Notes: a model not told the origin generated them from the sequence alone. Positions 23,379 through 44,530 are shown, numbered from the stretch's first letter. The stretch is 64,000 nucleotides of DNA from Oceaniferula marina (GCF_013391475.1 NZ_JACBAZ010000001.1:454377-518376), one strand, 5' to 3'. Made by a program: numbers and translations.

Positions 23379-24460
23379 CCACCGAGCTCCGAATCCAACT
23401 TCTTGCCCGGCATTGCCAGTCCCCGGAATTTCTCGGGACCTTTAGCCCCCAGGATTTAATAGCCTGGTTACAAGCCGAACTGGGGAATGCCACCGTGCTG
23501 GACCGATTTATCCCCCACGGGCCGATTCAGACCATGGCTATCGCCCCCAAACGACTACTCCACATCGTCAGTGGTAACAGCCCTCACGGAGCGATGCAGA
23601 GTGTCTTGCGCGGACTCTTGCTAGGGTCCATGAACGAGGTGAAATTACCGTCCGGCGGGCTCCCTGAGCTTAAACTCTGGGTTGATGCCTTTCCTGACGA
23701 ACTCCAACAACTTGTGAACCTACACGACGAGCTGCCCGACGCTCTATGGAAACAAGCCGACGCAGTCATCGCCATCGGTTCAGACACCAGCATTGAAGCG
23801 ATTCATGACAAATTAAGTCCATGGCAACGGTTTATTCCACACGGACACAAAGTCTCGATGGGTGTGGTTTACAGTGACTTCAAAACAGCAGCGGCTCGGG
23901 CCGCCCGTGATGTTTCACTTTTCAACCAGCGGGGGTGCCTGTCACCTCACGCCATCTACGTGGATGAAACCAAGCCGGGAGACAGGCAGCGCTTTGCCTC
24001 CTTGCTCGCAAAGGCCATGCAGAGCTTCAACTTAAACCATCCCCCTAGCCCCCTCAGCCTCTCCGAAGCCGGAGCCATACGCAATCTCAGGGAAACCTAT
24101 CGTTTTCTAGCCGCCAATGATCGAGACATCGAACTTCACGAAAGCAAGGCCTCACTCGATTGGACGGTCATCTCCGAGCCATCAATCACACTCAAACTTT
24201 CCTGCCTCAACCGATGCGTGTATGTCAAACCGCTGCCGCAGCAGCAGGAAGACAATATACATAAACTCATTGGAGACGAAGCCGCTCACCTCTCAACCGT
24301 CGCGATTCACCCATACTCCGATCAAACGGCAACCCACTGGGCAAACTCGCCAGCCAGCCGTATCTGCCCAATGGGAGAGAGTCAATCCCCCAGCCTGTTC
24401 TGGCACCACGACGGCTTCCCCCCATTGGCTTCCTTACTAAGCTGGAAAGATATCGGCTAA
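23375..24460 (+). CDS. LuxC-like acyl-CoA/acyl-protein reductase
   Basis: The 361-residue protein is an aldehyde-dehydrogenase-like LuxC (PF05893). It has LHIVSGNSPHGAMQSVLRGL in the N-terminal half and the catalytic Cys in FNQRGCLSPHAIYVDE. It reduces the activated fatty acyl group handed over by the LuxE partner, using NADPH. The start at 23375 gives an ATGA overlap with the luxE-like stop, which marks tight coupling. A second gene resembling IF-1 follows 32 bp later. Possible roles are wax or ether-lipid precursors, or aldehyde-based signals. The sequence does not decide. Confidence 0.85.
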   Translation: MTTELRIQLLARHCQSPEFLGTFSPQDLIAWLQAELGNATVLDRFIPHGPIQTMAIAPKRLLHIVSGNSPHGAMQSVLRGLLLGSMNEVKLPSGGLPELKLWVDAFPDELQQLVNLHDELPDALWKQADAVIAIGSDTSIEAIHDKLSPWQRFIPHGHKVSMGVVYSDFKTAAARAARDVSLFNQRGCLSPHAIYVDETKPGDRQRFASLLAKAMQSFNLNHPPSPLSLSEAGAIRNLRETYRFLAANDRDIELHESKASLDWTVISEPSITLKLSCLNRCVYVKPLPQQQEDNIHKLIGDEAAHLSTVAIHPYSDQTATHWANSPASRICPMGESQSPSLFWHHDGFPPLASLLSWKDIG

Positions 24461-26799: not shown

Positions 26800-29523
26800 A
26801 TGCGTTTTCACCTTCCTTTCATCGCCTTGCTCTGTTTTGCCCCTATCACCGCTGCGGAAATCAGCCTTTCATTGAATCAAAAGGAATGGAAAAACCAACC
26901 AACGGAAAAGCCCGCCCATTTCGACCGAGATGGCTTTCTACTTTTTGAAAAACAGCAACACATCCTTCTGGACCCCAAGTATAGTAAAAAGCTCCCCAAA
27001 GAGCGTCTGATGCTCAGAGCCAGAGTGCGGGTTGACCAGCCTAATCGCTGGGGAGGCATCCTCTCCTATTCACAAGACAACGGAAACTATGAACGGGGAT
27101 GGCTTCTAGGATTTACCCACGACCGTTTTACCTTCAAACTTTCTACTGGCAAAAGTTTTATCCAGGCTACGTCCCCGTTCCCCTTCATCCTTGGACAAAG
27201 CTATGATCTGGCCGCACGCTATGACGGCAAGGAAATGCAACTCTACGTTGATGGCGTTCTGGTGGCAAAAAACAAAGCTGCAGGGGCTATTGCCTACCCG
27301 GATATTCCAACACCTCTCGTAGTTGGCGCCTACAAAGATAAAGATGAATTCTACCCAATGCTCGGCAGAATTGAATCCCTGAGCATCGGTTCCAAACTCG
27401 CCGATACAAACCAAATCAAAAAAGAAGCCGCTGCCAACCAATACCCCTTTGCTGTCCGACCATCAATCAGCTTCCTCAAGGCGGGTGAAGCCCTCATCGA
27501 ATGGGAATCAAGCCACAGTGGCCCCTCAATGATCAATTTTGGAACCAGCCCGGAAATGGGAACCATCATCAAAAGTGAGTCGTCCACCACCAACCACAGC
27601 ATCGTCCTCAAACATTTGGAACCTTCCACCGTCTACCACTTCCGGATCGGAGTCATCCATCAAGGCAAGCGGATTCTCGCTCCTCCGATGAGCTTTGACA
27701 CGACCATGAACTACTTGCCGGCTCAGCTCCCTGCAAATGAAGCATTCAAAGCAAATGCCAAGACTCAGGCATTCGTGAATACCCTGGTCAAAAAACACGG
27801 GGCCCATTTCTCAGGACACGCACTGGTCCTCGGCGGAGTAGATGCCAGATTATCCTACGAACTGGCAAAAAATACCCGCCTGAAAGTCACCATCATCGAC
27901 CGCGATGCCGATCGGGTTCAGCAATTGCGACAAACACTCTATCAAGCCGGAGTCTATGGCTCTAGAATCGAAGTTCTACACGCACCAAACGATGATATCC
28001 CACTCGGAAGTTGTCTCGCCAATTTGATCGTTTCTGAACGTGCACTTGCGGGTGAAGTCCTGCCCTACCCGGAAGCCGAGTGCAAACGGCTCACCCGCCC
28101 GTCCGGAGGCCAAATCCTCACCCCCACTCTCAGCTACACCCGACCAAAGCTCCCCGGCAGCAGTGAGTGGACCCACCAGTATGGTGACTCGGAAAACCGA
28201 TCCTATATTCCGGACTCCCTCGCGGGGGCCCACACCCAGGAAGATTTTACGATCCAATGGATCGGTCGGCCCGGTGCCGATTTCGGTATCGACCGCCAAA
28301 ACCGAATTCCCGCCCCTCTCGCCGTCAACGGGCTGACGTTTCTTCAAGGGTTCAACCGTATGATCGGCCTGGATGCCTACAACGGGCAAGTCCTGTGGTC
28401 GAAGGAAATCCCGGACTTACGCCGCCTCAATGTCCCTCACGATTGCTCCAACTGGTGTGCAGACCAGAACAACATCTATTTTGCCTTGGCTGATCGAGCC
28501 TGGGTCATTGACGCAGCCAGTGGTGAACGCACCGCCAATTTGAAACTCACGCACAAGGAGCGGGATACCCACGACTGGGCATACATCGCCGTCAATGGAG
28601 ATGTCCTGATCGGCAGCACCGTGCCCAAGGGATCCCATTTCAAAGAGTTCTGGAATAAATCCAATTGGTTTGACCAAGTTGGAAACGAGAAATCGATCAC
28701 CCAAATTTGCAGTGATAAGGTTTTTGCCTACAAACAATCATCCCTGAAAGGCCTATGGGCCTACGGCAAGGGATTGATCATCAATTCGAGTATTACCCTC
28801 ACGAAAGATCAACTCTACTTTCTCGAAGCCAGACATCCGGATCTCAAAGTGCAAGGGGCCGGTCGGGTGTTTGATAATAAACTCTGGCTCGACACCTATG
28901 TCGTATGCCTGGATCCAAGCAACGGTCGTAAGCGCTGGGAAAAGAAAATCCCACCCTTTTCCCATGTTTCCGAACGCTCGGGTTTCATCCAAGCCATGCA
29001 CGGACAGGTCAGCGATGTCGGATATCTCATGGTCGCTTCCGAAGGCATTTTCGCCAATGGTAAATTTACAGGTAAAGGCCATTTCGTGGCTCACCAGTAT
29101 GATTCAAAGGGGACGGTCAAGTGGTCGGTTCATAGCCCTTGGCAGTCCAACAATCATGGAACCCACATCGCCCACCCCATCGTCTTCCCAGACAAAGTGT
29201 TCCTCCATCCATACGCCTATCAGATCGAGGATGGTAAAAAAATCGACACCCGGGTGACGAACATTTCCGGATGCCCGACTCCAGTGGGCTACCCCTCGGG
29301 ACTCATCTACCGATCATCCGGATCTGGAGCCACGAGAATCCTCTGTATCTGGTCGATTCAAAACCAAAAGAACACCGGCTGGAAACGCCTCAGGCCAAGC
29401 TGCTGGCTCAATTACCTCCCCTCCCAAGGAATGGTGATTATGTCCGAAGGCGGAGGAGGTTGTTCCTGTGGAGGGTGGATCGAAACCTCCGTCTCTCTCA
29501 TCCCTATCAAGCACACCCACTAA
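26800..29523 (+). CDS. Exported multidomain PQQ-like propeller protein with methyltransferase-like fold
   Basis: This 907-residue protein has a signal peptide (residues 1-18, ending PITAA). A LamG/concanavalin-like domain spans about 25-215 (LYVDGVLVAKNKA). An FN3-like domain spans about 225-305 (VYHFRIGVI). A Rossmann segment at about 340-425 resembles SAM-dependent methyltransferases (ALVLGGVDARLSYELAKN and TIIDRDADRV). A PQQ-like beta-propeller fills the rest, with MIGLDAYNGQVLWSKEIP and VVCLDPSNGRKRWEKK. The C-terminus has conserved-looking cysteines in SGCPTP, RPSCWLNY and EGGGGCSCGG. A methyltransferase fold in an exported protein is odd and may be only structural. It is the first gene of the ten-gene cluster, and its partner propeller follows 12 bp later. 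Confidence 0.8.
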   Translation: MRFHLPFIALLCFAPITAAEISLSLNQKEWKNQPTEKPAHFDRDGFLLFEKQQHILLDPKYSKKLPKERLMLRARVRVDQPNRWGGILSYSQDNGNYERGWLLGFTHDRFTFKLSTGKSFIQATSPFPFILGQSYDLAARYDGKEMQLYVDGVLVAKNKAAGAIAYPDIPTPLVVGAYKDKDEFYPMLGRIESLSIGSKLADTNQIKKEAAANQYPFAVRPSISFLKAGEALIEWESSHSGPSMINFGTSPEMGTIIKSESSTTNHSIVLKHLEPSTVYHFRIGVIHQGKRILAPPMSFDTTMNYLPAQLPANEAFKANAKTQAFVNTLVKKHGAHFSGHALVLGGVDARLSYELAKNTRLKVTIIDRDADRVQQLRQTLYQAGVYGSRIEVLHAPNDDIPLGSCLANLIVSERALAGEVLPYPEAECKRLTRPSGGQILTPTLSYTRPKLPGSSEWTHQYGDSENRSYIPDSLAGAHTQEDFTIQWIGRPGADFGIDRQNRIPAPLAVNGLTFLQGFNRMIGLDAYNGQVLWSKEIPDLRRLNVPHDCSNWCADQNNIYFALADRAWVIDAASGERTANLKLTHKERDTHDWAYIAVNGDVLIGSTVPKGSHFKEFWNKSNWFDQVGNEKSITQICSDKVFAYKQSSLKGLWAYGKGLIINSSITLTKDQLYFLEARHPDLKVQGAGRVFDNKLWLDTYVVCLDPSNGRKRWEKKIPPFSHVSERSGFIQAMHGQVSDVGYLMVASEGIFANGKFTGKGHFVAHQYDSKGTVKWSVHSPWQSNNHGTHIAHPIVFPDKVFLHPYAYQIEDGKKIDTRVTNISGCPTPVGYPSGLIYRSSGSGATRILCIWSIQNQKNTGWKRLRPSCWLNYLPSQGMVIMSEGGGGCSCGGWIETSVSLIPIKHTH

Positions 29524-29535
29524 CTCCATTTTTCC

Positions 29536-30981
29536 ATGTCGATTTCATCATTCAGTCTATTTCTCACCCTGACCGCCAGCTTGCTGCTTACTGGTCTGGC
29601 TGGTGCCAATGACGAGTCGTGGCCCAGTTACCGACACGATAATGCCCGCTCGGGAAAAGCTTCCTCCGATTTAAAACTGCCTCTCCGTTTGGCTTGGGAT
29701 AAACACAACGCCCCACCTCAACAAGCATGGACAGGACCGGCCAAATGGGACGCGTATGCCGGCAACGACGGCTTACAGTCGATGCGTAATTTTGACCCTT
29801 GTTACTTCACAACCAGTCAGGATGGCCACCTCTACTACGGCTCATCGTCCGACAACGCAGTGCACTGCCTCGACACCAAGACGGGTAAAGAACAATGGGT
29901 CTACTTCACCGAAGCGGCGGTGCGCTTTCCCCCCACCCTCTACAAACATCTCGCGCTGTTTGGTTCCGATGACGGCTATGTTTATGCGGTGCATGCCAAA
30001 TCAGGAAAGCTCGAATGGAAGTTCAAGGCATCGCCGGTGAGCAACAAAGAAGAACGAAGAGTCCCAAACAATGGTAAGTTTATTTCCCATTGGCCGGTCC
30101 GCACCTCCGTGATGATTCATCGTAACCTCGCCTACTTTGGGGGCTCTCTCCTTCCATGGAAAAAATCCTACCTCTGCGCCATCGATCCGGAAACCGGCAA
30201 ACAGGGCGAAAAGGGATTTATGTCCGAGCTTGATAATGTCACTCTACAGGGGGCCTTACTAGCCAGTCAGGACCGCATTTATGTTCCTCAAGGAAGAACC
30301 GTGCCCTTGGTTTTCTCCTCTGACAAGGGTGTGCGATTGGGAAAGGTTCCCCACGCCGGTGGAGTTTTTGCCATTCTCGACGAAGAAGGTCGCTTTTTCG
30401 CAGGGCCACAAAACCAACGCACTGCCACGGAAGAAGTGAGAGCCATCGACACGAAAAACAATGCCAGAGTCGCCACCTTTGGTAGTGCCAACCGACTCGT
30501 CGTCGCAGATAACATTGCCTACCTTCACTCGGATAAACAGCTTCAGGCATTCGATTTGAAAAAAAACGGCACCATCATGGCCGAGATCAACCAAATCCAA
30601 ACCCAGATCAATCAATCGAAACAGCAACTCAAACAAACACCCAAAACAAATCAAAATCGACGGGATTCGTTAAGCCTGACCATCCGGGAGCTGGAAGAGA
30701 AAATTAAACGTACTCGCAAACAAACCGACACCTGTTGGTTGTGGAAAAAAGACAGCCAGGTGCCACTCGACCTGATTGCCACCCCCAGCCATATTATTGC
30801 AGGTTATGATGGATCGATCTCCATCATCGACAGAACATCAGGCGAACCTGTCTGGTCGACATCGATTCAAGGTAAAGCGCACGGATTAACCATTGCCGAT
30901 GGCAAACTCTTTGTCTCCACCAATCTCGGCAGTATTCTTAGTTATGGAAGCAAAGAAACTCAAACCCCTCCCATCCCCTAA
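29536..30981 (+). CDS. Exported PQQ-like beta-propeller protein with coiled-coil insert
   Basis: The 481-residue protein has a signal peptide (residues 1-24) and PQQ/WD40-like repeats: AVHCLDTKTGKEQWVYF, YVYAVHAKSGKLEWKF, YLCAIDPETGKQG and SIIDRTSGEPVWSTSI. In quinoprotein enzymes such repeats bind PQQ, but catalytic dehydrogenase residues cannot be confirmed here, so a scaffold role is as likely. A charged, Gln/Lys-rich helical segment of about 60 residues (around residues 350-410) interrupts the propeller and should form a coiled coil. The N-terminus, WPSYRHDNARSGK, matches secreted PVC propeller proteins. It lies between the larger propeller gene and the cysteine-cluster protein, with a 4-bp gap to the latter. 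Confidence 0.82.
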   Translation: MSISSFSLFLTLTASLLLTGLAGANDESWPSYRHDNARSGKASSDLKLPLRLAWDKHNAPPQQAWTGPAKWDAYAGNDGLQSMRNFDPCYFTTSQDGHLYYGSSSDNAVHCLDTKTGKEQWVYFTEAAVRFPPTLYKHLALFGSDDGYVYAVHAKSGKLEWKFKASPVSNKEERRVPNNGKFISHWPVRTSVMIHRNLAYFGGSLLPWKKSYLCAIDPETGKQGEKGFMSELDNVTLQGALLASQDRIYVPQGRTVPLVFSSDKGVRLGKVPHAGGVFAILDEEGRFFAGPQNQRTATEEVRAIDTKNNARVATFGSANRLVVADNIAYLHSDKQLQAFDLKKNGTIMAEINQIQTQINQSKQQLKQTPKTNQNRRDSLSLTIRELEEKIKRTRKQTDTCWLWKKDSQVPLDLIATPSHIIAGYDGSISIIDRTSGEPVWSTSIQGKAHGLTIADGKLFVSTNLGSILSYGSKETQTPPIP

Positions 30982-30985
30982 GCCC

Positions 30986-32161
30986 ATGTGGAACACCACC
31001 CTACGCCTGCTTTTTCTGACCGCAATCCTAAGCCCATACGCATGGGCTTGTCAGGTTCCTGTGTTTCGCTACGCCCTGGAACGCTGGGAATCCGATACCT
31101 ATCAACTATTTCTCACGAGCCCCGGAGCACTCGACAAACCGCAAACCGAATGGGTCAAAGAGTTCCAACAAAAGCTCAAGCATACCAATCTCAAGCTCAA
31201 CATCATCGACACCTCACGCTTGTCCGAAGCCCAGCTCTGGCAACTCCCTGAAATTGACACCTCGGCAAAGGAAGCAAGACTTCAATTGTTCCGACCGAAC
31301 AATGAGCAACAAAGCAGCGGACAAACCAAACCTATTCTCAATACGGCCTTCAACGAGGTCAATTTAAACCATTTGATCGACTCTCCAGCCAGACGCCACA
31401 TCGTCGACCGTCTTCTGGAGGGTTCCTCCTGCGTCTGGCTCATCATCCACAACAACCAGGAAGCCAAAGCAAAAGAAATCCAATCGGAATTAAACACCCA
31501 CTTGCGAACGATTGAAAAGCAAATCAGCATTCCTGAGGGAATCATTGGCACCGCGGAAAGACACAAAATCAATGAAGATACGGATCTTGAGGATGTGCTC
31601 CGATCTCAGATCCCTCTTAAAATAGCCTTCTCATCGCACATCATTAACACCCAAACCCCTGAGGAAGCAGCCTTCGTAGCCCAACTGATTCATAGCTCTG
31701 GCTCTCATGCCACACTTCAAAGCGAACCGCTGGTCATTCCGGTCTTTGGCAGGGGGCGTAAACTTCCGGCCATGCCATCATCGATGCTAAGCTTGGAAAC
31801 CCTGCTGCGTGGATGCCAATACCTGTGCGGTGCCTGTTCTTGCCAAGTGAAAGAACAAAACCCAGGAGCCGACCTCATCATCAATGAGAACTGGTCCTCT
31901 CACCTCACCTCCGGTCTGGCCGTCATCGACAAAGAATTGCCACCGCTTGCAGGTGTCGGTGACCTCACAAAGAGTCATGGGAACACATCATCACCTGCTC
32001 CCAAACAGGATGCCGAACTAGGAAACGAGGATCAACCCAATGTCATTCATGCGGTCGAGGAACCGGCAAATCAAAGATTCCCCATCTGGATCACCCTGGC
32101 ATCTCTGTTTGCCATCATTACCCTCTGTTCCATACTCGCAGTCAAAAGGAAGGCATCTTAA
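30986..32161 (+). CDS. Membrane-anchored protein with a four-cysteine cluster
   Basis: From the ATG at 30986 the protein has 391 residues. It has a signal peptide, then WACQVPVFRYALERWESD, a motif I believe recurs in secreted proteins of this phylum. A large extracytoplasmic region follows. A cysteine cluster sits at Cys277, 281, 284 and 286 in CQYLCGACSCQVKEQNPGAD. One C-terminal helix (WITLASLFAIITL) before RK completes it, so it is anchored by its tail. The spacing suggests metal or thiol chemistry, but no named family is known to me. It directly precedes the FtsX-type permease and ATPase and may work with them. An earlier in-frame start at 30893 lies inside the previous gene and is unlikely. 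Confidence 0.75.
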   Translation: MWNTTLRLLFLTAILSPYAWACQVPVFRYALERWESDTYQLFLTSPGALDKPQTEWVKEFQQKLKHTNLKLNIIDTSRLSEAQLWQLPEIDTSAKEARLQLFRPNNEQQSSGQTKPILNTAFNEVNLNHLIDSPARRHIVDRLLEGSSCVWLIIHNNQEAKAKEIQSELNTHLRTIEKQISIPEGIIGTAERHKINEDTDLEDVLRSQIPLKIAFSSHIINTQTPEEAAFVAQLIHSSGSHATLQSEPLVIPVFGRGRKLPAMPSSMLSLETLLRGCQYLCGACSCQVKEQNPGADLIINENWSSHLTSGLAVIDKELPPLAGVGDLTKSHGNTSSPAPKQDAELGNEDQPNVIHAVEEPANQRFPIWITLASLFAIITLCSILAVKRKAS

Positions 32162-32209
32162 GACCTTTCTTACAAAACCATTCTCAGCCCATATATTTCA
32201 TCACACACC

Positions 32210-33442
32210 GTGAGCATCACCACTCTCATTTTCAAAGAACTCCGACACCGAATACTCGGAGCCTGCATTTCAGTTCTGACCATTACCATTGCCCTGACTT
32301 GTCTTGTCGCCTCAATGGAAGCCATGCGTAGCTACGACTTAAAAACAGAACAACAACTCGCAGAGCTTGACCAAAAAACAAAAGAAACCAACCAAAAGCT
32401 CAATGACCAGATCCGCAAAACCATGAAAGGGCTCGGGTTCAATGTGCATATCTATCCGGCGACACAACAATTGTCTGAAGTTTACGCCCAAGGTTACGCT
32501 TCGGAAACCATGCCCGAAGCATACGCCCAGACCTTGGCCGACTCTTCCATCGTCAGCATCAACCACCTCCTCCCCAGGCTGTCCCGCCGTATTCTTTGGA
32601 AAGAAAACAACACAGAAATCATGCTGATTGGTGTGGATGGACAAGTGCCTATCTCCCATCGGAATCCAACCAAGCCGATCATGCAACCCGTGCCACCAGG
32701 CAGCGCAGTGATCGGAGCTGAGCTGGCAAAACAATTCAAACTCAAGGTGCGGGAATCCATCACGATCAACCAGCAGTCGTTCACCATTCACCAAATTCAT
32801 CCACCACGTGGCACGATTGATGACATCACCATCTGGATTCCTTTGAAATCGGCCCAGAACATGCTGAACCTTCCTGGTAAAATCAACGCCATCCTGGCCC
32901 TCGGCTGCAATTGCACCAGCATTGATCGACTGGGGACAATCCGCAAGGAACTTAAGACCATCCTACCCAACACCCAGGTCATTGAAATTGAAAGCAAGGC
33001 CCTTGCCCGCGCCGAATCCAGAAACAAAGTCCGCGAGGAATCCGAACGAACTCGTCAAAACATCGTCACGAGCCGAAAACAAGGTCGCAGCGACCGACAA
33101 GCTTTTGTCACCTTGCTGACACCACTCATCCTGATTGCTTCTCTTGTTGGATTGTTTACTCTCTGCCTGTTTAATGTTCGTGATCGCCGACCAGAAATCG
33201 GTCTCCTCCTATCGATGGGAATACCCTCTAGCAAAATCTTTACTCTCTTTCTTGGTAGAGCTGCATTGATTGGATGTTCGGGAACTTTGATTACTCTGAC
33301 CATCATTTTTCTGCTGGATTACCCGCTTGACCACTACTGGGACTTGGCACTGCTAGCACCACTCCTTACGGTCCTGTCTGCATGGTTACCCACCCTGACG
33401 GCAGCCCGTCACGACCCATTGATCAGTTTAAAACAAGATTAA
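32210..33442 (+). CDS. FtsX/MacB-type ABC transporter permease
   Basis: The 410-residue protein has one N-terminal helix (ILGACISVLTITIALTCLVAS), a large extracytoplasmic domain of about 250 residues, then three C-terminal helices with the FtsX signature FNVRDRRPEIGLLLSMGIPSS. This layout is that of MacB/LolE-type permeases, which move or extract molecules at the periplasmic face (mechanotransmission) and do not pump across the membrane. Translation starts at a GTG (32210). The ATPase partner follows 13 bp later. A charged helical stretch in the periplasmic domain (SERTRQNIVTSRKQGRSD) is notable. Confidence 0.86.
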   Translation: MSITTLIFKELRHRILGACISVLTITIALTCLVASMEAMRSYDLKTEQQLAELDQKTKETNQKLNDQIRKTMKGLGFNVHIYPATQQLSEVYAQGYASETMPEAYAQTLADSSIVSINHLLPRLSRRILWKENNTEIMLIGVDGQVPISHRNPTKPIMQPVPPGSAVIGAELAKQFKLKVRESITINQQSFTIHQIHPPRGTIDDITIWIPLKSAQNMLNLPGKINAILALGCNCTSIDRLGTIRKELKTILPNTQVIEIESKALARAESRNKVREESERTRQNIVTSRKQGRSDRQAFVTLLTPLILIASLVGLFTLCLFNVRDRRPEIGLLLSMGIPSSKIFTLFLGRAALIGCSGTLITLTIIFLLDYPLDHYWDLALLAPLLTVLSAWLPTLTAARHDPLISLKQD

Positions 33443-33455
33443 TCCTCCTCAATCA

Positions 33456-34133
33456 ATGCATGCTATCAACACAAAAGAAATCACTCAGGTTTTCGACAAT
33501 GGAAACCACCGGGTGACGGCTGTCGACAAGGTCACACTCCAAATTCACCAAGGCGAACTGATTGCGATTACAGGCCGAAGCGGCAGTGGTAAATCCACCC
33601 TGCTCTATCAACTTGCAGGGCTGTTACATCCCAGCAGCGGCACCCTCCACTATGGAGAAAACCAGCCCTACAAACTCAGCACAAATAAACTTAATCAATT
33701 CCGAGCCGAACACATCGGCATGATCTATCCAGATTTCCGACTCCTGCCATATCTGAACGTCATCGAGAACATTCAATCCCCCTCATTGGCACTAAACATG
33801 ACGGACGACGAAGTGAAGCAACGCGCCCTCGATTTAATTTCCAGCTTCTCTTTGCAAGACCGGGTGAACCACTTGCCTTCAGCCCTAAGTTCGGGTGAGC
33901 AACAACGTGTCGCTCTGGCCAGAGCTTTATTCACCTCTCCATCAACGATCATTGCTGATGAGCCCACAGGCAATCTGGACGAAGCCAACAGCCACAAGCT
34001 GATCAGCACACTCAAAAATTACGCCGAACAAGGAAATGTTGTGATCATTGCCACCCACGACCCCTTGGTTATGAAAGCGGCCGACCGCCAACTGCAAATG
34101 AAGCAAGGTCAACTGAGCCAGGCACTTACCTAA
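33456..34133 (+). CDS. ABC transporter ATP-binding protein (LolD/MacB type)
   Basis: The 225-residue ATPase has Walker [11 protein letters not shown], the signature [16 protein letters not shown], Walker [13 protein letters not shown] and a switch His in [18 protein letters not shown] is the pattern of the LolD/MacB/FtsE group. It should power the FtsX-type permease encoded 13 bp upstream. The sequence at the Q-loop is [20 protein letters not shown]. Most relatives have a Gln here (IGFVFQ...). In this protein the position is Tyr-Pro, a small deviation worth checking. Confidence 0.9.
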
Positions 34134-34167
34134 ACCCACCTCACTCTAACTCAGCCCCATTTTAACC

Positions 34168-34440
34168 ATGCACATCCTACTACAAGGTCAACTCGGAGCA
34201 CTGACAAACTCGCCCATTATCGACTACCCGCTGGTTGAGGAAACCACCGTCGCCGACCTCATTCAGCAAATTTGCAAACGCCTACCTCAGGAAGCCCAAC
34301 AACTCATCCTTCACAGTGACGGTTCATTGCGCCAAAGCCTCTTTGTTGCAATCGATGACAACCACCTCAGGGACCTCAATACCCTGATCCCGCCGAACAC
34401 CAAAGAGCTGATACTCATGCCCCCGATGGCAGGAGGCTAA
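34168..34440 (+). CDS. MoaD/ThiS-like sulfur-carrier protein
   Basis: The 90-residue protein has a beta-grasp pattern: HILLQGQLGALT at the start, TVADLIQQICKRLPQEAQQLI in the middle and ELILMPPMAGG at the end. The terminal Gly-Gly is the site that in MoaD and ThiS is adenylated by an E1-like enzyme and then carries sulfur as thiocarboxylate. The end PPMAGG is closest to MoaD. An E1-like gene follows 33 bp downstream. Other molybdopterin or thiamin synthesis genes (moaE, moaA, thiG) are absent nearby, so a role other than standard cofactor synthesis is possible. Confidence 0.82.
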   Translation: MHILLQGQLGALTNSPIIDYPLVEETTVADLIQQICKRLPQEAQQLILHSDGSLRQSLFVAIDDNHLRDLNTLIPPNTKELILMPPMAGG

Positions 34441-34473
34441 GTCATGCATCACAACTCTCGATGAATCACCACC

Positions 34474-35244
34474 ATGCATCTCGACCCCACCGACCAATCC
34501 ATCTATTCATGGCAACTTGACGTCCCCGGACTCGGAGCCTCTGGCCAACAAATCTTGCGCAACACCACCGCACTGGTGTCCCGAGTCGGAGGCCTTGGGG
34601 GGCCGCTTGCCCAGTCACTGGCGGCAGCCGGGTTCGGAAAAATCATTCTCGCTCATGGAGGCCCCCTGCGGCCCGACGACTTAAACCGACAAATTCTCAT
34701 GACCCATGAAGGTTTGGGGAAAAACCGAGCCAAACAAGCAGCCGCCACCATTGAGCGTTTCACCCCTCGGGTTGAAACCATGGCCGTCGAATCCAACATC
34801 AATGAAACCAACGTCGAATCCCTGGTAAAACAAGCCGATATCGTTTTTTCCTGCGCCCCTCTCTTTGATGAGCGCTTACTCATGAACCGTGAAGCCATTC
34901 ACCAAAACAAACTCTTCGTCGACAGTGCCATGTTCAACCTCGAAGGACAGGTTCTGGCTGTCCGCCCCAACCAAAGCACCTGTCTCGCCTGCATCACTCC
35001 AACTCCCCCTGCAGGATGGAAACGGCGTTTCCCTGTGATTGGTGCCGTTTCAGCCTTAATTGCCCAATTGGGAGTCCTGGAAGGAATCAAACTACTTACA
35101 GGAATGGCTCCAGCAAACACCGACACGCTCCTGCATTTTTCAACGCAACAATCCACACTCAGAAAAATCAAACTCACCCGCAACCCGGAATGCCCCCACT
35201 GTGGAACACACACACACGAACAAAACACCGTTACCATTCCATGA
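34474..35244 (+). CDS. ThiF/MoeB/HesA-family E1-like protein with altered active site
   Basis: The 256-residue protein has the E1 fold markers: a Rossmann glycine turn (VGGLGGPLAQSLAAAGFG), the Arg-containing DDLNRQIL, zinc-binding pairs CLAC (170-173) and CPHC (240-243), and IGAVSALIAQLGVLEGIKLLTG. Aligned by eye with MoeB, several active-site positions differ: the usual acidic LxDxD strand end is LAHGG, and the metal-binding Asp in CTDN is replaced in CAPL (127-130). These changes suggest weak or different adenylation chemistry. It lies between the MoaD-like gene and the ModA-like fusion, overlapping the latter by four bases (ATGA). Confidence 0.82.
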   Translation: MHLDPTDQSIYSWQLDVPGLGASGQQILRNTTALVSRVGGLGGPLAQSLAAAGFGKIILAHGGPLRPDDLNRQILMTHEGLGKNRAKQAAATIERFTPRVETMAVESNINETNVESLVKQADIVFSCAPLFDERLLMNREAIHQNKLFVDSAMFNLEGQVLAVRPNQSTCLACITPTPPAGWKRRFPVIGAVSALIAQLGVLEGIKLLTGMAPANTDTLLHFSTQQSTLRKIKLTRNPECPHCGTHTHEQNTVTIP

Positions 35245-36758
35245 ACAAGATTACTTTACTCTTCACATTCCTCATCGGAACAATGGCCATCTGCCTCTGG
35301 GCACTCTGGCCCTCACAAAAAACAACATCGGATGATAAATCCCTCACGCTTTACTGCGCCGCCGGCCTGCAGAGTCCGGTTGAAGAAATCATCGAAGACT
35401 ATCACAAACTAACAGGCAGAACCGTCAAGGTCATTTACAACGGGTCGGGCGCCCTGTTATCGCAAATCAAGATTGCCCCGGGAGACCTCTATCTACCGGC
35501 AAACAACGAGTATATCCGTCAGGCTGAATCGATGGATCTCACCATGGAATCGATTCCTGCCGCGAGTATGACCGCAGTGCTCGTCGTCGCAAAGGACAAC
35601 CAGAATATTCAGGATTTGGATGATCTAACTCAAGAAGGTATTCGTATCTCCTTTGCCGATTCAACGGCAGCCATTGGTAAACATGTGCGTCAGGTGCTCA
35701 GTGAACATCAACTGCTCGCAGCCATTGAAAAAAACGTCACCGTGACAAAACCAACAGTGAACAACATCATCGAAGATGTAGCTCTGGGCAGCGTCGACGC
35801 AACGATAGCGTGGGATGCGGTTGCAAACCACAACCCGAAAGTCAAAACCATCCCCATCCCCATCTTCCATAACAAACCAAGGGTAGCGGAAATTGCGGTC
35901 CTCCGCTCCAGCAAGGAGGCAAGTGCCGCACTTCACTTCGCACGTTACCTCAGCGCAAAAGATCGAGGCTTAAAAACCTTTGCTCAACACGGGTTCCAAG
36001 TCAGTCCACAAGCAGACCTATGGAAAGACGTGCCGGAGATCCTTCTCTTTTCAGGTTCCATGTTAAGGCCCGCAATCCAAGATGGTTTAAGGGAATTTGA
36101 ACAACGTGAAGGTTGCCGAATTTCGACCGTTTACGAAGGCTGCGGAACCTTGGTCGCCCAAATGAAAGCCGGAGCACAACCCGAGTTCTATTTTTCCTGT
36201 GATGTCACTTTTCTGGACCAAGTCCAAGACCGCTTTGAACCCGGCACGGTGATCTCCCAAAACGAAATCATCCTCCTCGTGCCCAAAGGTAACCCGAAAA
36301 ACATCCGAACCCTCGACGACCTAAACAAAGCAAACCTTAAGGTAGGGGTTGCCCATCCGGTTAAAAGCGCCCTTGGCAAACTAACCCACGACATGCTCAA
36401 GGCCTCCAGCCACCTCAAACCACTTGAAGCATCAGGAAACATCATCATTCTTGCGAGCAAGGGCGATGAACTTGTTACCCAGATGCAGGCCGGAGCCCTC
36501 GATGCCGCATTGCTCTATCGAAGCAATGCCAAAGCCAGCGAAGCCATCACCAAACATTGCTCCATCATTTCCTTGAATCGAACTGACGCCATTGCAACCC
36601 AACCTTTTGCGATTGCCGTCAATGCCCAACACCCGCAAATGATGCGCAGGCTTGGTGCATACCTCTCCAACAAACAGGCCGAGCAACGGTTCAAACATTT
36701 CGGTTTCACCTGGAAAAAAGAGACTCACAATCGGAGTAACACACCAGCAAATCCATAA
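35241..36758 (+). CDS. Tandem-fused ModA-like substrate-binding protein
   Basis: The 505-residue protein has an N-terminal hydrophobic anchor or signal (LLFTFLIGTMAICLWALW), then two homologous type-2 binding domains. Domain 1 (about 34-265) contains LTLYCAAGLQSPVEEI and YNGSGALLSQI. Domain 2 (about 270-490) contains ILLFSGSMLRPAI and YEGCGTLVAQM. Both resemble ModA (SBP_bac_11), which binds molybdate or tungstate through Ser/Thr and backbone groups in these loops. Two lobes in one chain is unusual, as ModA normally has one. Whether both bind the same ligand is unclear. Cys replaces Ser in YEGCG. ModB- and ModC-like genes follow. Confidence 0.86.
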   Translation: MNKITLLFTFLIGTMAICLWALWPSQKTTSDDKSLTLYCAAGLQSPVEEIIEDYHKLTGRTVKVIYNGSGALLSQIKIAPGDLYLPANNEYIRQAESMDLTMESIPAASMTAVLVVAKDNQNIQDLDDLTQEGIRISFADSTAAIGKHVRQVLSEHQLLAAIEKNVTVTKPTVNNIIEDVALGSVDATIAWDAVANHNPKVKTIPIPIFHNKPRVAEIAVLRSSKEASAALHFARYLSAKDRGLKTFAQHGFQVSPQADLWKDVPEILLFSGSMLRPAIQDGLREFEQREGCRISTVYEGCGTLVAQMKAGAQPEFYFSCDVTFLDQVQDRFEPGTVISQNEIILLVPKGNPKNIRTLDDLNKANLKVGVAHPVKSALGKLTHDMLKASSHLKPLEASGNIIILASKGDELVTQMQAGALDAALLYRSNAKASEAITKHCSIISLNRTDAIATQPFAIAVNAQHPQMMRRLGAYLSNKQAEQRFKHFGFTWKKETHNRSNTPANP

Positions 36759-36839
36759 GATCCTCCTCAAGCGTCTACAAATCCCTTGTTAAATTCCTGT
36801 TCACGTCCAAAAGATTACCGCTAGAATCACGAAGCACAC

Positions 36840-37682
36840 ATGAGCGATTCACAGACCACCCCTCCGCATAAAAAAAACCGGAGAGTCAAATCCGACATCC
36901 CGTTTTTTCTCGGATTGTTCGGTTTTGCCGGGGTATACCTTGTGCTCATCCTGAGTTTGCTTGTCGCCAATGCGAGTTTCATCGATGCGGAAGCCATCCG
37001 CGAGGCCTTTACCAGTGAAGCCACACTCGGCTCATTGAAGCTCACCTTTCTTACCTGCACCATTTCCGCCATCCTCTCGCTCTTTGCAGCCATCCCAATC
37101 GCATACAGTCTTTCGCGCTTCACCTTCAAAGGCAAAACCTTCGTCGACACCCTGTTCGACATCCCCATCGTCCTCCCCCCACTCGTTGTTGGACTCAGCC
37201 TGTTGATTTTATTCAACAGGCTACCCGACCCCGACAACTCTCTCGAAAAATGGCTCAACCAACACGGCATTGCCATCACCTTTCACGTCCCTGCCATCAT
37301 TCTGGCCCAATTCACCGTTGCCGCCGCTTTCGCCGTGCGTAGCATGAAAAATACCTTCGATCAGATTTCGTCACGCACCGAAGACATTGCGCTCACGCTC
37401 GGTTGCAACCGATCCCAAGCCTTCTGGAAAGTCACCCTGCCTCAGGCCCATAAAGGGATCATTGCGGCCGGACTGCTAGCCTGGGCCCGTGCCCTTGGAG
37501 AATTTGGCCCCATCCTGGTATTTGCCGGAGCCACTCGCGGAAGAACCGAGGTCCTCGCCACTTCTGTGTTTTTAGAAATCAATATCGGCAACCTCGCGGG
37601 AGCTGCATCCATTTCCCTGGTCCTGATCACGCTGGCCATCCTTACCATTCTCACTGTCAGGCTCGCTGGAGACCGCCGCTAA
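36840..37682 (+). CDS. ModB-like ABC transporter permease
   Basis: The 280-residue protein has about six helices: FFLGLFGFAGVYLVLIL near the N-terminus, and IVLPPLVVGLSLLILF. The cytoplasmic EAA loop reads EDIALTLGCNRSQAFWKVTLPQ and is followed by GLLAWARALGEFGPILVFAG, which is typical of molybdate/tungstate/sulfate permeases. It should form the channel for the substrate delivered by the fused binding protein, driven by the ATPase 33 bp downstream. Compared with ModB it has an extra hydrophilic N-terminal stretch of about 22 residues. Confidence 0.9.
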   Translation: MSDSQTTPPHKKNRRVKSDIPFFLGLFGFAGVYLVLILSLLVANASFIDAEAIREAFTSEATLGSLKLTFLTCTISAILSLFAAIPIAYSLSRFTFKGKTFVDTLFDIPIVLPPLVVGLSLLILFNRLPDPDNSLEKWLNQHGIAITFHVPAIILAQFTVAAAFAVRSMKNTFDQISSRTEDIALTLGCNRSQAFWKVTLPQAHKGIIAAGLLAWARALGEFGPILVFAGATRGRTEVLATSVFLEINIGNLAGAASISLVLITLAILTILTVRLAGDRR

Positions 37683-37715
37683 AGCTCCCTTCGCCCAAGA
37701 CCAATCCATCCAAAC

Positions 37716-38366
37716 ATGCTCAAGGTCCACCAACTCGCAGTCCACGCCGGAAGTTTCGCTCTGGAAAACATTTCCTTTGAAGTCCCGACGGGTGCTTGTT
37801 TTTCACTGATGGGCCCCAGCGGCAGCGGGAAAACAACCCTAATGGAGGCCCTCTGCGGCTTACGCCACGTGGACTCCGGCACCATCCATCTTTCGGATAG
37901 AACGATTACCGATATGCGCCCCGGCGACCGCAACATCGCACTTGTCCCGCAGGACAACGCCCTCTTCCCGCATCTTACGATCCGACAGCATCTCAGTTTC
38001 GGGCCTCAAATCCGACGTTGGAGCAAAACGGACACCCGGAACCGCTGCAACGAACTCGCCGAGCAACTAGGACTCACGCAGTTACTCGACCGCTACCCGG
38101 CCAAACTTTCAGGAGGGGAAGCCAAACGGGTCGCCCTCGGGAGAGCTCTAGCCTCACGCCCCGACCTCCTATGTCTGGACGAAGCGCTTACCGGTCTGGA
38201 TGATGGAACCCACAACGAAGTGCTCAGCGCCTTGCAACAAACGATCTCTGACCACTCGGTGACCACCTTGCACATCACACATAATCGTAAAGAGGCTCAG
38301 GCACTCGCCTGCTCCATCATCGAAATGGATCAACTGAGATCACAGCCATCTCAGATCATCACCTGA
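37716..38366 (+). CDS. ModC-like ABC transporter ATP-binding protein
   Basis: The 216-residue ATPase has Walker A GPSGSGKTTLM, Q-loop VPQDNALFPHLTIRQHL, signature LSGGEAKRVALGRALA, Walker B LLCLDEALTGLD and the switch His in TLHITHNRKEA. The motifs are those of molybdate/tungstate/sulfate-type importers. E. coli ModC has an extra C-terminal TOBE (molybdate-sensing) domain of about 130 residues. It is missing here, so trans-inhibition by the ligand through TOBE is not expected. This is the last gene of the cluster. A 504-bp gap follows. Confidence 0.9.
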   Translation: MLKVHQLAVHAGSFALENISFEVPTGACFSLMGPSGSGKTTLMEALCGLRHVDSGTIHLSDRTITDMRPGDRNIALVPQDNALFPHLTIRQHLSFGPQIRRWSKTDTRNRCNELAEQLGLTQLLDRYPAKLSGGEAKRVALGRALASRPDLLCLDEALTGLDDGTHNEVLSALQQTISDHSVTTLHITHNRKEAQALACSIIEMDQLRSQPSQIIT

Positions 38367-38870: not shown

Positions 38871-39272
38871 ATGATCACGAAAATCGACCACTTAGGAATC
38901 GCCGTCAAATCTCTGGATGATGCCATCCCATACTACGAAAACGTCCTCGGCCTCGAATGTGAAGGTCGGGAAGAAGTAGAATCGCAAAACGTGAAAACGG
39001 CCTTCTTTGCTGTCGGCGAGGTTCACGTTGAACTACTCGAGCCCACCTCTCCTGAAAGCCCGATTGCAAAATTCATCGAGAAGAACGGTGAAGGCATCCA
39101 CCACGTTGCCTTTGGAACCGATGACGTCATCAGCCAACTGGCACAAGCCAAGGACAACGGTGTCCGGGTTCTCCACGAAACACCGATCGATGGTGCTGGC
39201 AACAAACTGATTGCCTTCCTCCATCCCAAATCCACCGGCGGTGTTCTCACCGAGTTCTGTCAGCCCAAGTAA
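38871..39272 (+). CDS. mce: Methylmalonyl-CoA epimerase
   Basis: The 133-residue protein is a vicinal oxygen chelate enzyme: KIDHLGIAVKSLDDAIPYY, HVELLEPTSPESPIAKF, GEGIHHVAFGTDD and GGVLTEFCQPK. The two His and the Glu that hold the metal are in place (His of DHLG, His of IHHVAF, Glu of LTEF). It interconverts (R)- and (S)-methylmalonyl-CoA, linking the mutase to the decarboxylase encoded just downstream. It opens a long same-strand set for succinate-to-propionate conversion, with 44 bp before the next gene. Confidence 0.95.
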   Translation: MITKIDHLGIAVKSLDDAIPYYENVLGLECEGREEVESQNVKTAFFAVGEVHVELLEPTSPESPIAKFIEKNGEGIHHVAFGTDDVISQLAQAKDNGVRVLHETPIDGAGNKLIAFLHPKSTGGVLTEFCQPK

Positions 39273-39316
39273 ACCCCATTCGGTAATCACACTCTAATTC
39301 ACAACAATCTATCATT

Positions 39317-40870
39317 ATGGCCATCGAAAAAGAACTCATGGATAAACTCCAAGCCCGGAGGGACGAAGCCCTCCTCGGTGGAGGACAGGAACGCATCGAC
39401 AAACGTCATGCTAAAGGGCAAATGACTGCCCGCGAACGTCTCACCTCCTTTTTTGACGGAGGTGACTTTATTGAGTTCGGTATGCACGCCCACCACTCTT
39501 GCACCAACTTTGGTCTGGAGAAACGCAAGATGCCCGGTGACGGCGTCGTTTGTGCCACTGGAACAGTCGATGGCCGCCCAACAGCCGCATTTGCCCAGGA
39601 CTTCACCGTCGGTGGCGGTGCCGTAGGACGTATCCATGCCAAGAAAATCTGTGACTTGCTCGACTACGCTGTGAAAGCAGGGATGCCGGTCATCGGAATC
39701 AACGACTCGGGCGGAGCCCGGATTCAGGAAGGCATCGAAGCTCTCGCCGGATACGGTCAAGTCTTCTTCCGCAATGTGCTACTCTCCGGAGTGGTGCCCC
39801 AGATTTCTGTCATTTCCGGTCCATGCGCCGGTGGTGCAGCCTACTCACCGGCCCTGACCGACTTCCTGATCATGACCCGCAAGAATGCGAACATGTTCAT
39901 CTGCGGCCCCGACGTCATTAAAGCAGCCACCGGTCAGACGGCATCCCTTGACCAGTTCGCCAGCGCCGATGCACACGCCCAGGTCAGCGGAAACATCCAC
40001 TTGATTGCTGAAGACGACCAGCATGCAATCGATCTCAGTAAGCGCCTGCTCTCCTACCTGCCATCCAATAATGCAGCCGAGCCTCCTCATCAACTGAACG
40101 ATGAGATTGCCATTACCGAAGACCCTGAGATCAACGACCTCATTCCAGCGGATTCCAAAACACCACTGGACATGCAGAAGGTGATCGCCCGCATCGTCGA
40201 CCCGGGAAGCTGGTTTGAAATCATGCCTGACTTTGCACCAAACATGCTGGTTGGATTTGCTCGTATTGAAGGCCTTATCATTGGCGTCATTGCGAACCAA
40301 CCCATGGTGAAGGCTGGTTGCATCGACATCGATTCTTCCGACAAAGCTGCCCGTTTCATCCGGGTGTGCAACATTTACTCCATTCCGATCCTCTCGCTTG
40401 TTGACGTCCCCGGCTTCATGCCAGGCCTAGCACAGGAACGAGGCGGCATCATCCGTCACGGAGCAAAGATGCTCTTTGCCTGGGCATCAGGAACCGTACC
40501 AAAGATCACCTTGATCTGCCGCAAAGCATACGGTGGAGCCTATCTTGCCATGTGTCCAAGTGATCTCGGTGCCGACTTTGTTTTTGCATGGCCAACAGCC
40601 GAAATCGCCGTGATGGGTGCCCAAGGCGCCATGAAGGTTCTCTATCGGAAAGAACTCGCCGAAGCCGAAGATCCAGAAAAACTGGAATCCGAACTTCGCG
40701 CATCCTATTCCGAGAAATTCGCCTCCCCCTATCAAGCCGCAAGTAATGGTATGATCACCGATGTGATCGATCCGGCGCAGTCCAGATCAACACTTGCCCT
40801 TGCATTCCGTCAGATGATGGATAAACGTGAGAGCCGACCACCGAAAAAACACGGTAACATCCCACTCTAA
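39317..40870 (+). CDS. mmdA: Methylmalonyl-CoA decarboxylase alpha subunit (carboxyltransferase)
   Basis: The 517-residue protein is a biotin-dependent carboxyltransferase with two crotonase-like halves: GQMTARERLTSFFDGGDF, PVIGINDSGGARIQEG, GPCAGGAAYSPALTDF, and in the second half LVDVPGFMPGLAQERGGII and GGAYLAMCPSDLGADF. It removes CO2 from methylmalonyl-CoA and passes it to biotin on the carrier protein. A propionyl-CoA carboxylase beta subunit has the same fold. The adjacent OadG-, BCCP- and OadB-like genes and the absence of a biotin carboxylase favour the Na+-pumping decarboxylase. Confidence 0.93.
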   Translation: MAIEKELMDKLQARRDEALLGGGQERIDKRHAKGQMTARERLTSFFDGGDFIEFGMHAHHSCTNFGLEKRKMPGDGVVCATGTVDGRPTAAFAQDFTVGGGAVGRIHAKKICDLLDYAVKAGMPVIGINDSGGARIQEGIEALAGYGQVFFRNVLLSGVVPQISVISGPCAGGAAYSPALTDFLIMTRKNANMFICGPDVIKAATGQTASLDQFASADAHAQVSGNIHLIAEDDQHAIDLSKRLLSYLPSNNAAEPPHQLNDEIAITEDPEINDLIPADSKTPLDMQKVIARIVDPGSWFEIMPDFAPNMLVGFARIEGLIIGVIANQPMVKAGCIDIDSSDKAARFIRVCNIYSIPILSLVDVPGFMPGLAQERGGIIRHGAKMLFAWASGTVPKITLICRKAYGGAYLAMCPSDLGADFVFAWPTAEIAVMGAQGAMKVLYRKELAEAEDPEKLESELRASYSEKFASPYQAASNGMITDVIDPAQSRSTLALAFRQMMDKRESRPPKKHGNIPL

Positions 40871-40905
40871 TCATAATCTAATCATCTATTAACACTCCAT
40901 ACCTG

Positions 40906-41277
40906 ATGACTGTCATTCCCAATCTCCTCGCGAACGCTGCCGGTGAAAGTAAATCCCTGGCAGATGCAGCCCCCCACCTTCTCGGATTCTTTGTCGTTCT
41001 TGGAACCTTGGCAGCACTGCTCGGCCTGTGCACGCTGGTAAGTAAAATCCTGCAACGCTATCAACCCGAGCCCGCCGCCCCCAAGCCGGTGAGAAAGCCC
41101 GCAGCAGCAGCCAGCCCGGCGAGTGACAGCATTTCACCAGAAGTGGTGACCGTAATCGCGGCGGCCGTAGCCGCCGTGGCAGGAGACAAACAACGCATCA
41201 TTTCGATCAAACCGCAAAAATCATCCTGGAGTCAAGCCGGACGTCACCAACACCATACGTCCCACAATATCCGATAA
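40906..41277 (+). CDS. Sodium-pump decarboxylase gamma/delta subunit (OadG/MmdD family)
   Basis: The 123-residue protein has one N-terminal transmembrane helix (FFVVLGTLAALLGLCTLV). A Pro/Ala linker (PEPAAPKPVRKPAAAA) follows, then a conserved C-terminus: ISPEVVTVIAAAVAAVAG and SIKPQKSSWSQAGRHQHHTSH. The family anchors and assembles the Na+-translocating decarboxylase. The C-terminal end contacts the carboxyltransferase. It sits between the alpha subunit and the biotin carrier, as expected for mmd-type operons. Confidence 0.85.
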   Translation: MTVIPNLLANAAGESKSLADAAPHLLGFFVVLGTLAALLGLCTLVSKILQRYQPEPAAPKPVRKPAAAASPASDSISPEVVTVIAAAVAAVAGDKQRIISIKPQKSSWSQAGRHQHHTSHNIR

Positions 41278-41326
41278 ATCCATCCGACATCTGAAGAATC
41301 CAATCAATCATCCTATTTAAACCATC

Positions 41327-41701
41327 ATGAAACAACTCCGCATTACCGTAGAAGGAAAAACCTATGACGTCACTGTTGAAGTCACCGATGACGATGCCCC
41401 AGCCCAAGCAGCAGCCGCGGCCGCACCAGCCGCTGCCGCGCCAGCCGCGGCCGCACCAGTGACCGCACCACCCGTTGCCAAAGCAGCGGAAGGAGACGTC
41501 GTCAGCCCTCTGGCTGGAGTCGTACAAGCCATCGAAGTTGCAGCCGGAGCCTCCGTCAATGAAGGCGACCTCGTCATCACCCTCGAAGCCATGAAGATGT
41601 ATACATCCATCAACGCTCCGGGTGCAGGCACCGTGACCGCTATTCACGTCAACGTCGGTGACGCTGTCGATGAAGGGCAACCTCTGTATACCCTCGGATA
41701 A
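41327..41701 (+). CDS. Biotin carboxyl carrier protein of methylmalonyl-CoA decarboxylase
   Basis: The 124-residue protein has a short N-terminal strand region (RITVEGKTYDVTVEVTDDD). A flexible Ala/Pro linker of repeated PAAAA units follows, then a biotinyl domain with ITLEAMKMYTSINAP. Lys90 in EAMKM is the biotinylated residue. It carries CO2 from the alpha to the beta subunit. The linker length gives the swinging arm reach. It matches MmdC-type carriers in place and size. Confidence 0.93.
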   Translation: MKQLRITVEGKTYDVTVEVTDDDAPAQAAAAAAPAAAAPAAAAPVTAPPVAKAAEGDVVSPLAGVVQAIEVAAGASVNEGDLVITLEAMKMYTSINAPGAGTVTAIHVNVGDAVDEGQPLYTLG

Positions 41702-41793
41702 TCCGACTCCTGACCTCAAACCTCCTTTTTGACCCTGGCAGTCTGGCCAGGGTCACCCCGTTGATACTCATCCGAAACTAACACTCTTTTCTC

Positions 41794-42939: not shown

Positions 42940-43019
42940 CAAAGAACCACCTTTTTTTTAACTTGGCTCGGAGTCTCGAAAAAATTTCGACCCGAGCCTC
43001 TTTTTCACCACCATAAACC

Positions 43020-44507: not shown

Positions 44508-44530
44508 ATCACTTCCAACCACACTCCACC

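Follow-up and report, generated by a model that had tools for sequence, protein, structure and literature searches.

What might ten closely packed genes of Oceaniferula marina, two of which encode exported β-propellers, do together? They occupy positions 26800 to 38366 of the analysed stretch of 64,000 nucleotides (GCF_013391475.1 NZ_JACBAZ010000001.1:454377-518376; hereafter the window), which lies on contig C1 of a genome of 5.07 Mb. We conclude that the ten genes almost certainly form one functional system. Our preferred reading of its task, held tentatively and a little short of evenly balanced, is that the cluster builds a thiolate-ligated metal centre, probably a metal-sulfur centre, and loads it into the exported propellers.

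All ten open reading frames are present on the + strand, and the first-pass annotation had rightly described them as same-strand and closely spaced. The successive intergenic gaps from g1 to g10 are 12, 4, 48, 13, 34, 33, -7, 81 and 33 bp. These figures assume that g3 starts at ATG 30986, which is most likely the start rather than TTG 30893, and that g8 starts at ATG 35238, to which it was corrected. Pfam and NCBIfam searches confirmed the families proposed earlier for the propellers, the FtsX-type permease and its ATPase, MoaD, ThiF, the double ModA, ModB and ModC. The features, with the evidence used for each, are as follows.

26800..29523, + strand: g1, exported client propeller, 907 aa (Pfam, invariant alignment columns, AlphaFold2)
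29272..29490, + strand: codons of the four-Cys site of g1, residues 825-897 (GC...RLRPSCWL...GGGGCSCGGWIETS) (sequence comparison)
29536..30981, + strand: g2, exported second propeller, 481 aa (Pfam/NCBIfam, locus comparison)
30986..32161, + strand: g3, thioredoxin-fold protein, 391 aa, with a C-terminal transmembrane helix (alignment, AlphaFold2, Foldseek, VIA-align)
32210..33442, + strand: g4, FtsX/MacB-type permease with C233xC235 in its extracytoplasmic domain (Pfam/NCBIfam, alignment)
33456..34133, + strand: g5, LolD/MacB-type ABC ATPase (Pfam/NCBIfam)
34168..34440, + strand: g6, MoaD/ThiS-type sulfur carrier, C-terminus PPMAGG (Pfam/NCBIfam)
34474..35244, + strand: g7, dedicated ThiF/MoeB-like adenylyltransferase (NCBIfam, subfamily comparison)
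35238..36758, + strand: g8, exported double ModA-like receptor (Pfam, alignment)
36840..37682, + strand: g9, ModB-like permease (Pfam/NCBIfam)
37716..38366, + strand: g10, ModC-like ATPase without a regulatory domain (Pfam/NCBIfam)

Do these genes belong together beyond this locus? A search of 388 genomes of the phylum Verrucomicrobiota detected g3 in 43 of them, and the same set was screened with profiles for the C-terminus of the client propeller (A2), the double ModA (A3; ModA2 below) and the dedicated ThiF (A6). The four-Cys propeller occurs in 23 genomes, 22 of which have g3, while full-length double ModA and the dedicated ThiF subfamily each occur in 21 genomes, all with g3 (21/21 in both cases). 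Against the 43/388 background the hypergeometric p for this co-occurrence is about 1e-22, a value that ignores shared ancestry. Eight g3-positive genomes have no match to the propeller, ModA2 or ThiF profile. Partner genes often lie on different contigs (in genome G029, for example, ThiF is on C3 and g3 on C4), and the association is thus not merely one of linkage. The strength of the co-occurrence support lies in its spread over many families and in these unlinked genes. The sequence distances of the proteins are also correlated (r 0.82-0.99), as shared descent would likewise produce. Frequent separation of the genes had been named at the outset as an argument against a single system; the modules do part physically, yet they still co-occur within genomes.

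Gene order points in the same direction. In 20 kb taken around 40 of the copies, g3 is followed by FtsX and LolD genes in most neighbourhoods, and genes for propeller, double ModA, ModB, ModC, ThiF and MoaD recur nearby. An alignment-based scan of 84,980 species genomes yielded 533 relatives of g3, the best 80 of which are our only view of other bacterial phyla; the best 79 loci belong to Verrucomicrobiota, Lentisphaerales, Kiritimatiellales and Planctomycetes. Two loci (L081 and L082) contain all ten genes in the order and orientation of the window, with MoaD between LolD and ThiF, and two others (L102 and L107) contain all ten with the second half inverted. The order in Akkermansiaceae is g1 g2 g3 g4 > < g10 g9 g8 g7 g5, and GG-ending MoaD homologues adjoin ThiF in most loci outside this family. 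Over 119 loci we counted a propeller in 65, FtsX in 61, LolD in 56, ModA2 in 45 and ThiF in 32. The gene-order search in the Planctomycetes-Verrucomicrobia-Chlamydiae (PVC) superphylum that the first-pass annotation had suggested thus recovered complete synteny, and this, together with the co-occurrence, bears out its idea of one undescribed envelope system in that group. An additional conserved enzyme was sought in the neighbourhoods and rejected, as the flanks differ by genome (DNA polymerase I, sulfatases, a tonB receptor and others).

The full cluster is scattered in Verrucomicrobiota and reduced in Lentisphaerales and Planctomycetes. ModA2 is present in nine of ten genomes of the latter two groups that have a g1-g3 locus; in planctomycetes the Cys-type double ModA lies apart from g1-g2-g3, in a locus of the composition propeller-g3-ModA2-ModB-ModC. 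Given these planctomycete loci, which have no CxC-type FtsX, the smallest set shared by all is propeller, g3 and ModA2-B-C, and FtsX/LolD and MoaD/ThiF are additions in Verrucomicrobiota and Lentisphaerales.

What, then, is the client? Protein g1 consists of a signal peptide, a LamG domain, an FN3-like domain, a Rossmann/methyltransferase-like domain and a propeller of the pyrroloquinoline quinone (PQQ)-like type; the methyltransferase-like domain is weakly supported (Methyltransf_25, E 0.0016, below the Pfam cut-off). Its cysteines 825, 868, 888 and 890 form a C-x42-C-x19-CxC pattern that is invariant across 19 g1 homologues, and the four cysteines plus one arginine are invariant in 27 divergent propellers with identities down to 17% (alignment A2). 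The AlphaFold2 model of g1 has a mean predicted confidence (pLDDT) of 82, with the CxC-bearing segment 884-895 modelled at low confidence. Searching with the whole model retrieved nothing but widespread folds (jelly rolls of the lectin type for LamG, propellers of the WD40 type) and was uninformative for function. Protein g2 is a PQQ-like propeller without the CxC and matches the N-terminal half of fused propellers of about 1300 aa in other genomes. Identity of either protein as a PQQ-dependent quinoprotein dehydrogenase was rejected, both scoring far below the cut-offs of TIGR03075, TIGR03074 and TIGR04528.

At a site remote from the cluster, this genome encodes a second propeller of the same Cys-bearing family, an open frame of 986 aa (G000:C4:594230-595198; L160 4222-7179, - strand), and the system may therefore serve more than one client. 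A planctomycete propeller of about 1300 aa (L178 3606-7490) has its methyltransferase-like domain at the N-terminus and LamG at the C-terminus, a domain order unlike that of g1. The sole genome with a four-Cys propeller and no g3 match is an 86% complete draft (G186:C165:2304-3191); either the sequence is missing from the draft or this is a client without the system.

Protein g3 has a signal peptide, tandem thioredoxin-fold domains and a C-terminal transmembrane helix. It had been announced as a four-Cys membrane protein, and of this description the helix stands; the (near-)invariant cysteines number three (22, 284 and 286). Counted from Met 30986, Cys22 is kept in 118/122 homologues, Cys284 in 122/122, Cys286 in 121/122 and Lys289 in 122/122. 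Cys22 lies in the motif AC-x-VPVFRYALERW and the other two form Cys284-x-Cys286. Neither g3 nor its homologues match any Pfam or NCBIfam family. In the AlphaFold2 model (pLDDT 84) residues 130-282 align with thioredoxin (VIA-align Z 8.2, root-mean-square deviation 3.0 over 101 residues), and Foldseek places the model with PDI-type tandem thioredoxin domains, namely b-b' of ERp57 (E 1e-5). The permease g4 carries a conserved pair as well (C233 in 60/61, C235 in 59/61), a CxC that is found in 0/11 other or partial FtsX-like reading frames of the same loci.

The receptor g8 combines two SBP_bac_11 (ModA) domains in one chain, and with g9 and g10 it makes up an operon of solute-binding protein, permease and ATPase homologous to ModABC (Pfam/NCBIfam). 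Its cysteines are conserved in both domains: C40 of domain 1 in 45/49 sequences, C302 and C321 of domain 2 in 48/49 each; position 275 of domain 2 is Met in 31 and Val in 17 sequences. Aligned to a solved molybdate receptor, position 302 falls on the second Ser of FASSSTL and position 321 on the Ala of ISAD, so that residues 275, 302 and 321 match Ser12, Ser39 and Ala58 of E. coli ModA. Ala58 is a pocket position of the E. coli structure. Ser12 and Ser39 make contacts to the anion bound by ModA (PMC8895017). Domain 2 of g8 thus lacks an oxyanion pocket of the Ser12/Ser39 type, having Met/Val, Cys and Cys instead, and the oxyanion receptor envisaged by the first-pass annotation is not supported as stated. 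This verdict applies to domain 2, because domain 1 is mixed: the Ser12 position is Gly, and Ser70 and Ala88 are kept at the Ser39 and Ala58 positions. In loci that encode the receptor as two separate genes, one of the two products carries Cys at the Ala9, Met at the Ser12 and Cys-His at the Ala58 position; such retention of Cys and Met despite the shift of one Cys is as expected for a metal pocket. The two types of receptor domain occur in reversed order in one protein (L039).

Conserved cysteines in propeller, g3, FtsX and ModA2 are the unifying feature of the cluster, which the first-pass annotation had missed. Because such residues are what a centre would require, we propose a thiol-ligated centre in the propellers, a proposition that we regard as evenly balanced. 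The same cysteines might instead be redox active, with g3 as a PDI-like oxidoreductase that folds the propellers in a thiol-disulfide or sulfur relay involving no metal. The resemblance of g3 to b-b' of ERp57 and the fact that CxC motifs can be redox active speak for such a relay, which we nevertheless hold to be very unlikely: g3 has no canonical or conserved CxxC, its kept motifs being CxxP and CxC, and the ModA2 cysteines lie where a solute receptor binds its ligand, together with Met and, in split forms, His.

Is the centre a matter of molybdenum? A GG-ending carrier (g6) and an adenylyltransferase (g7) are present as in molybdopterin synthase systems, and this genome makes molybdenum cofactor (moaC/D/E, mobA and moeA-like genes on C5). 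Since the genome has its own moaC/D/E, MoeB and ThiS in addition, g6 and g7 are a dedicated pair; the g7 subfamily is distinct from the MoeB of the same genome. In a molybdenum or tungsten version of the system, domain 1 of g8 would bind MoO4/WO4, MoaD/ThiF would thiolate Mo/W or a special pterin, and the propellers would receive a Mo/W centre. The nearest transporter families are indeed those for molybdate and tungstate, domain 1 retains Ser70 and Ala88, and no ModA-like protein other than g8 was found in this genome, where the other SBP_bac_11 matches belong by gene context to the Pst phosphate system and to an iron-type receptor. Moreover, moaC tracks the dedicated ThiF (18/21 genomes with it, 2/17 g3 genomes without it), and canonical ModABC plus MoeB/MoeZ flank the cluster in family f28, as MoeB/MoeZ does in f45 and f63. 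We still consider this version rather unlikely in view of the Met/Val-Cys-Cys set at three pocket positions of domain 2 and of the genomes without a moaC match, which comprise three of 21 with the dedicated ThiF (drafts 93-97% complete, one marker), four with ModA2 and 12 of the 22 propeller-bearing genomes examined. An AOR-type tungsten enzyme was rejected as client, the genome having no PF01314 match, which likewise counts against the Mo/W version.

In f28 the canonical molybdate ModABC lies directly beside the Cys-type cluster (L053 5881-8287; L055 11948-14547, where ModA and ModB share one reading frame). The canonical ModA of L053 has Cys at the Ala9 position and keeps Ser at the Ser12 and Ser39 positions; C40 alone is therefore not diagnostic.

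Two genomes (G029 and G215) keep the dedicated ThiF and ModA2 without moaC, and the product need not be molybdopterin. Given these genomes and the pocket of domain 2, the system is not just a supplier to molybdenum cofactor synthesis; the gene content rather suggests metal-sulfur chemistry that may share a molybdenum supply. The original proposal, imported oxyanion or sulfur chemistry tied to a centre on the propellers, thus survives in its link between import, sulfur activation and propeller (conserved cysteines, ThiF with g3 in 21/21) and only partly in its molybdate reading. A new heterometal-sulfur cofactor, for instance of the Mo-S-Cu type, appears very unlikely; molybdate would enter via canonical ModABC and Cu(I) via the Met/Cys/Cys ModA2-B-C, MoaD/ThiF would contribute sulfur, the CxC-bearing FtsX/LolD would assemble or export the product, and g3 would insert it into the four-Cys site of the propellers. 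Peptide modification (ribosomally synthesized and post-translationally modified peptides) or ubiquitin-like tagging was rejected, without further test, as no precursor, peptidase or E2-like gene recurs at the loci.

How could a thiolate-ligated centre be made and delivered? By family, ModABC-type proteins are importers, ThiF-type enzymes lead to thiocarboxylate formation by adenylating the C-terminus of a carrier, and FtsX/LolD-type machines use ATP to drive work on the outer side of the membrane. We speculate that g8 captures a soft metal, for which Cu(I) is the simplest candidate, through Met/Cys/Cys of domain 2, and that g9/g10 import it. MoaD/ThiF would form a thiocarboxylate as sulfur donor, and FtsX/LolD, with the CxC of the outer domain, would carry the product through the membrane or release it from there. 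Membrane-anchored g3 (Cys22, CxC) might then deliver the centre to the C-C-CxC site of g1, which would work with g2. Both metal identity and direction of transfer are inferred here, and copper is a possible but doubtful choice.

Several points weigh against this reading. A receptor and an importer imply inward movement, yet the client is outside. The Cys clusters could be disulfides, and the ModB alignment has no conserved Cys, Met or His column. A CxC-type FtsX was not found in planctomycete genomes that have a g1-g2-g3 locus, so the FtsX step is not universal. Finally, moaC and canonical molybdenum genes are associated with the cluster, for which copper alone is no explanation. The direction of flow could also be the reverse: propeller and g3 would scavenge a thiophilic metal outside, ModA2 would import it, and FtsX/LolD would aid transfer in the envelope. 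A receptor-dependent importer is a natural end point for such a route, Planctomycetes have only propeller-g3-ModA2-B-C in one locus, and thiols occur at every station. As neither the dedicated MoaD/ThiF sulfur pair nor the large, multidomain, enzyme-like g1 is explained by scavenging, we judge it quite unlikely.

Promoter and terminator scans gave counts at chance level. Just upstream of the cluster (window 22299-24460) lie genes that we named by eye as a LuxE-like acyl-protein synthetase and a LuxC-like acyl-CoA reductase, and downstream (38871-46000) a methylmalonyl/propionyl-CoA decarboxylase-like set that includes an epimerase, a biotin carrier and a Na+-pump-like subunit, also named by eye; both groups are apparently unrelated.

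The searched papers and family libraries contained nothing relevant on this cluster, although few subscription papers were covered, so a description could exist. If the thiolate-centre reading is correct, hundreds of PVC genomes would encode a pathway, so far undescribed, that makes and exports a thiolate-bound metal centre and involves a new thioredoxin-fold family and a ModA receptor turned soft-metal receptor. Some of the many PQQ-like propellers of PVC bacteria would then constitute a new class of secreted metalloproteins. The reading also offers a test, at the level of individual residues, for what a very large set of exported, unannotated proteins does.

How does the cluster compare with known systems? 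Proteins g8-g10 are homologous to ModABC/WtpABC/TupABC (TIGR01256, TIGR01581 and WtpC-like matches) and differ in the one-chain two-domain receptor, its Met/Val-Cys-Cys pocket and a ModC without regulatory domain. As in MoaD-MoeB and ThiS-ThiF, g6 ends in GG and g7 is an adenylyltransferase of the ThiF fold, but g7 is a separate subfamily that occurs only in g3 genomes, some of them without moaC. The FtsX-type permease and LolD-type ATPase are shared with LolCDE, MacAB and FtsEX, whereas g4 bears an extracytoplasmic CxC and its partner g3 is neither MacA- nor LolA-type. With thioredoxin and PDI oxidoreductases g3 shares the fold, without the active-site CxxC. N2O reductase, like the clients described here, is exported and has a β-propeller fold. 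For its CuZ centre, ABC proteins of the NosDFY complex are proposed as the sulfide source, and NosL binds Cu(I) (PMC6530538). There a membrane ABC complex and a thiol-rich chaperone load CuZ (4Cu, sulfide), a logic to which we liken that of the cluster. No protein families are shared, and none of NosD, NosF, NosY and NosL is among the listed Pfam/NCBIfam matches of the ten proteins; FtsX/LolD would stand in for NosDFY and thioredoxin-fold g3 for NosL, the site is Cys-rich rather than made of His, and a dedicated MoaD/ThiF pair and a ModABC-like importer are added. If our preferred reading holds, the cluster would join N2O reductase maturation as a second example of periplasmic metal-sulfur assembly that involves an ABC machine.

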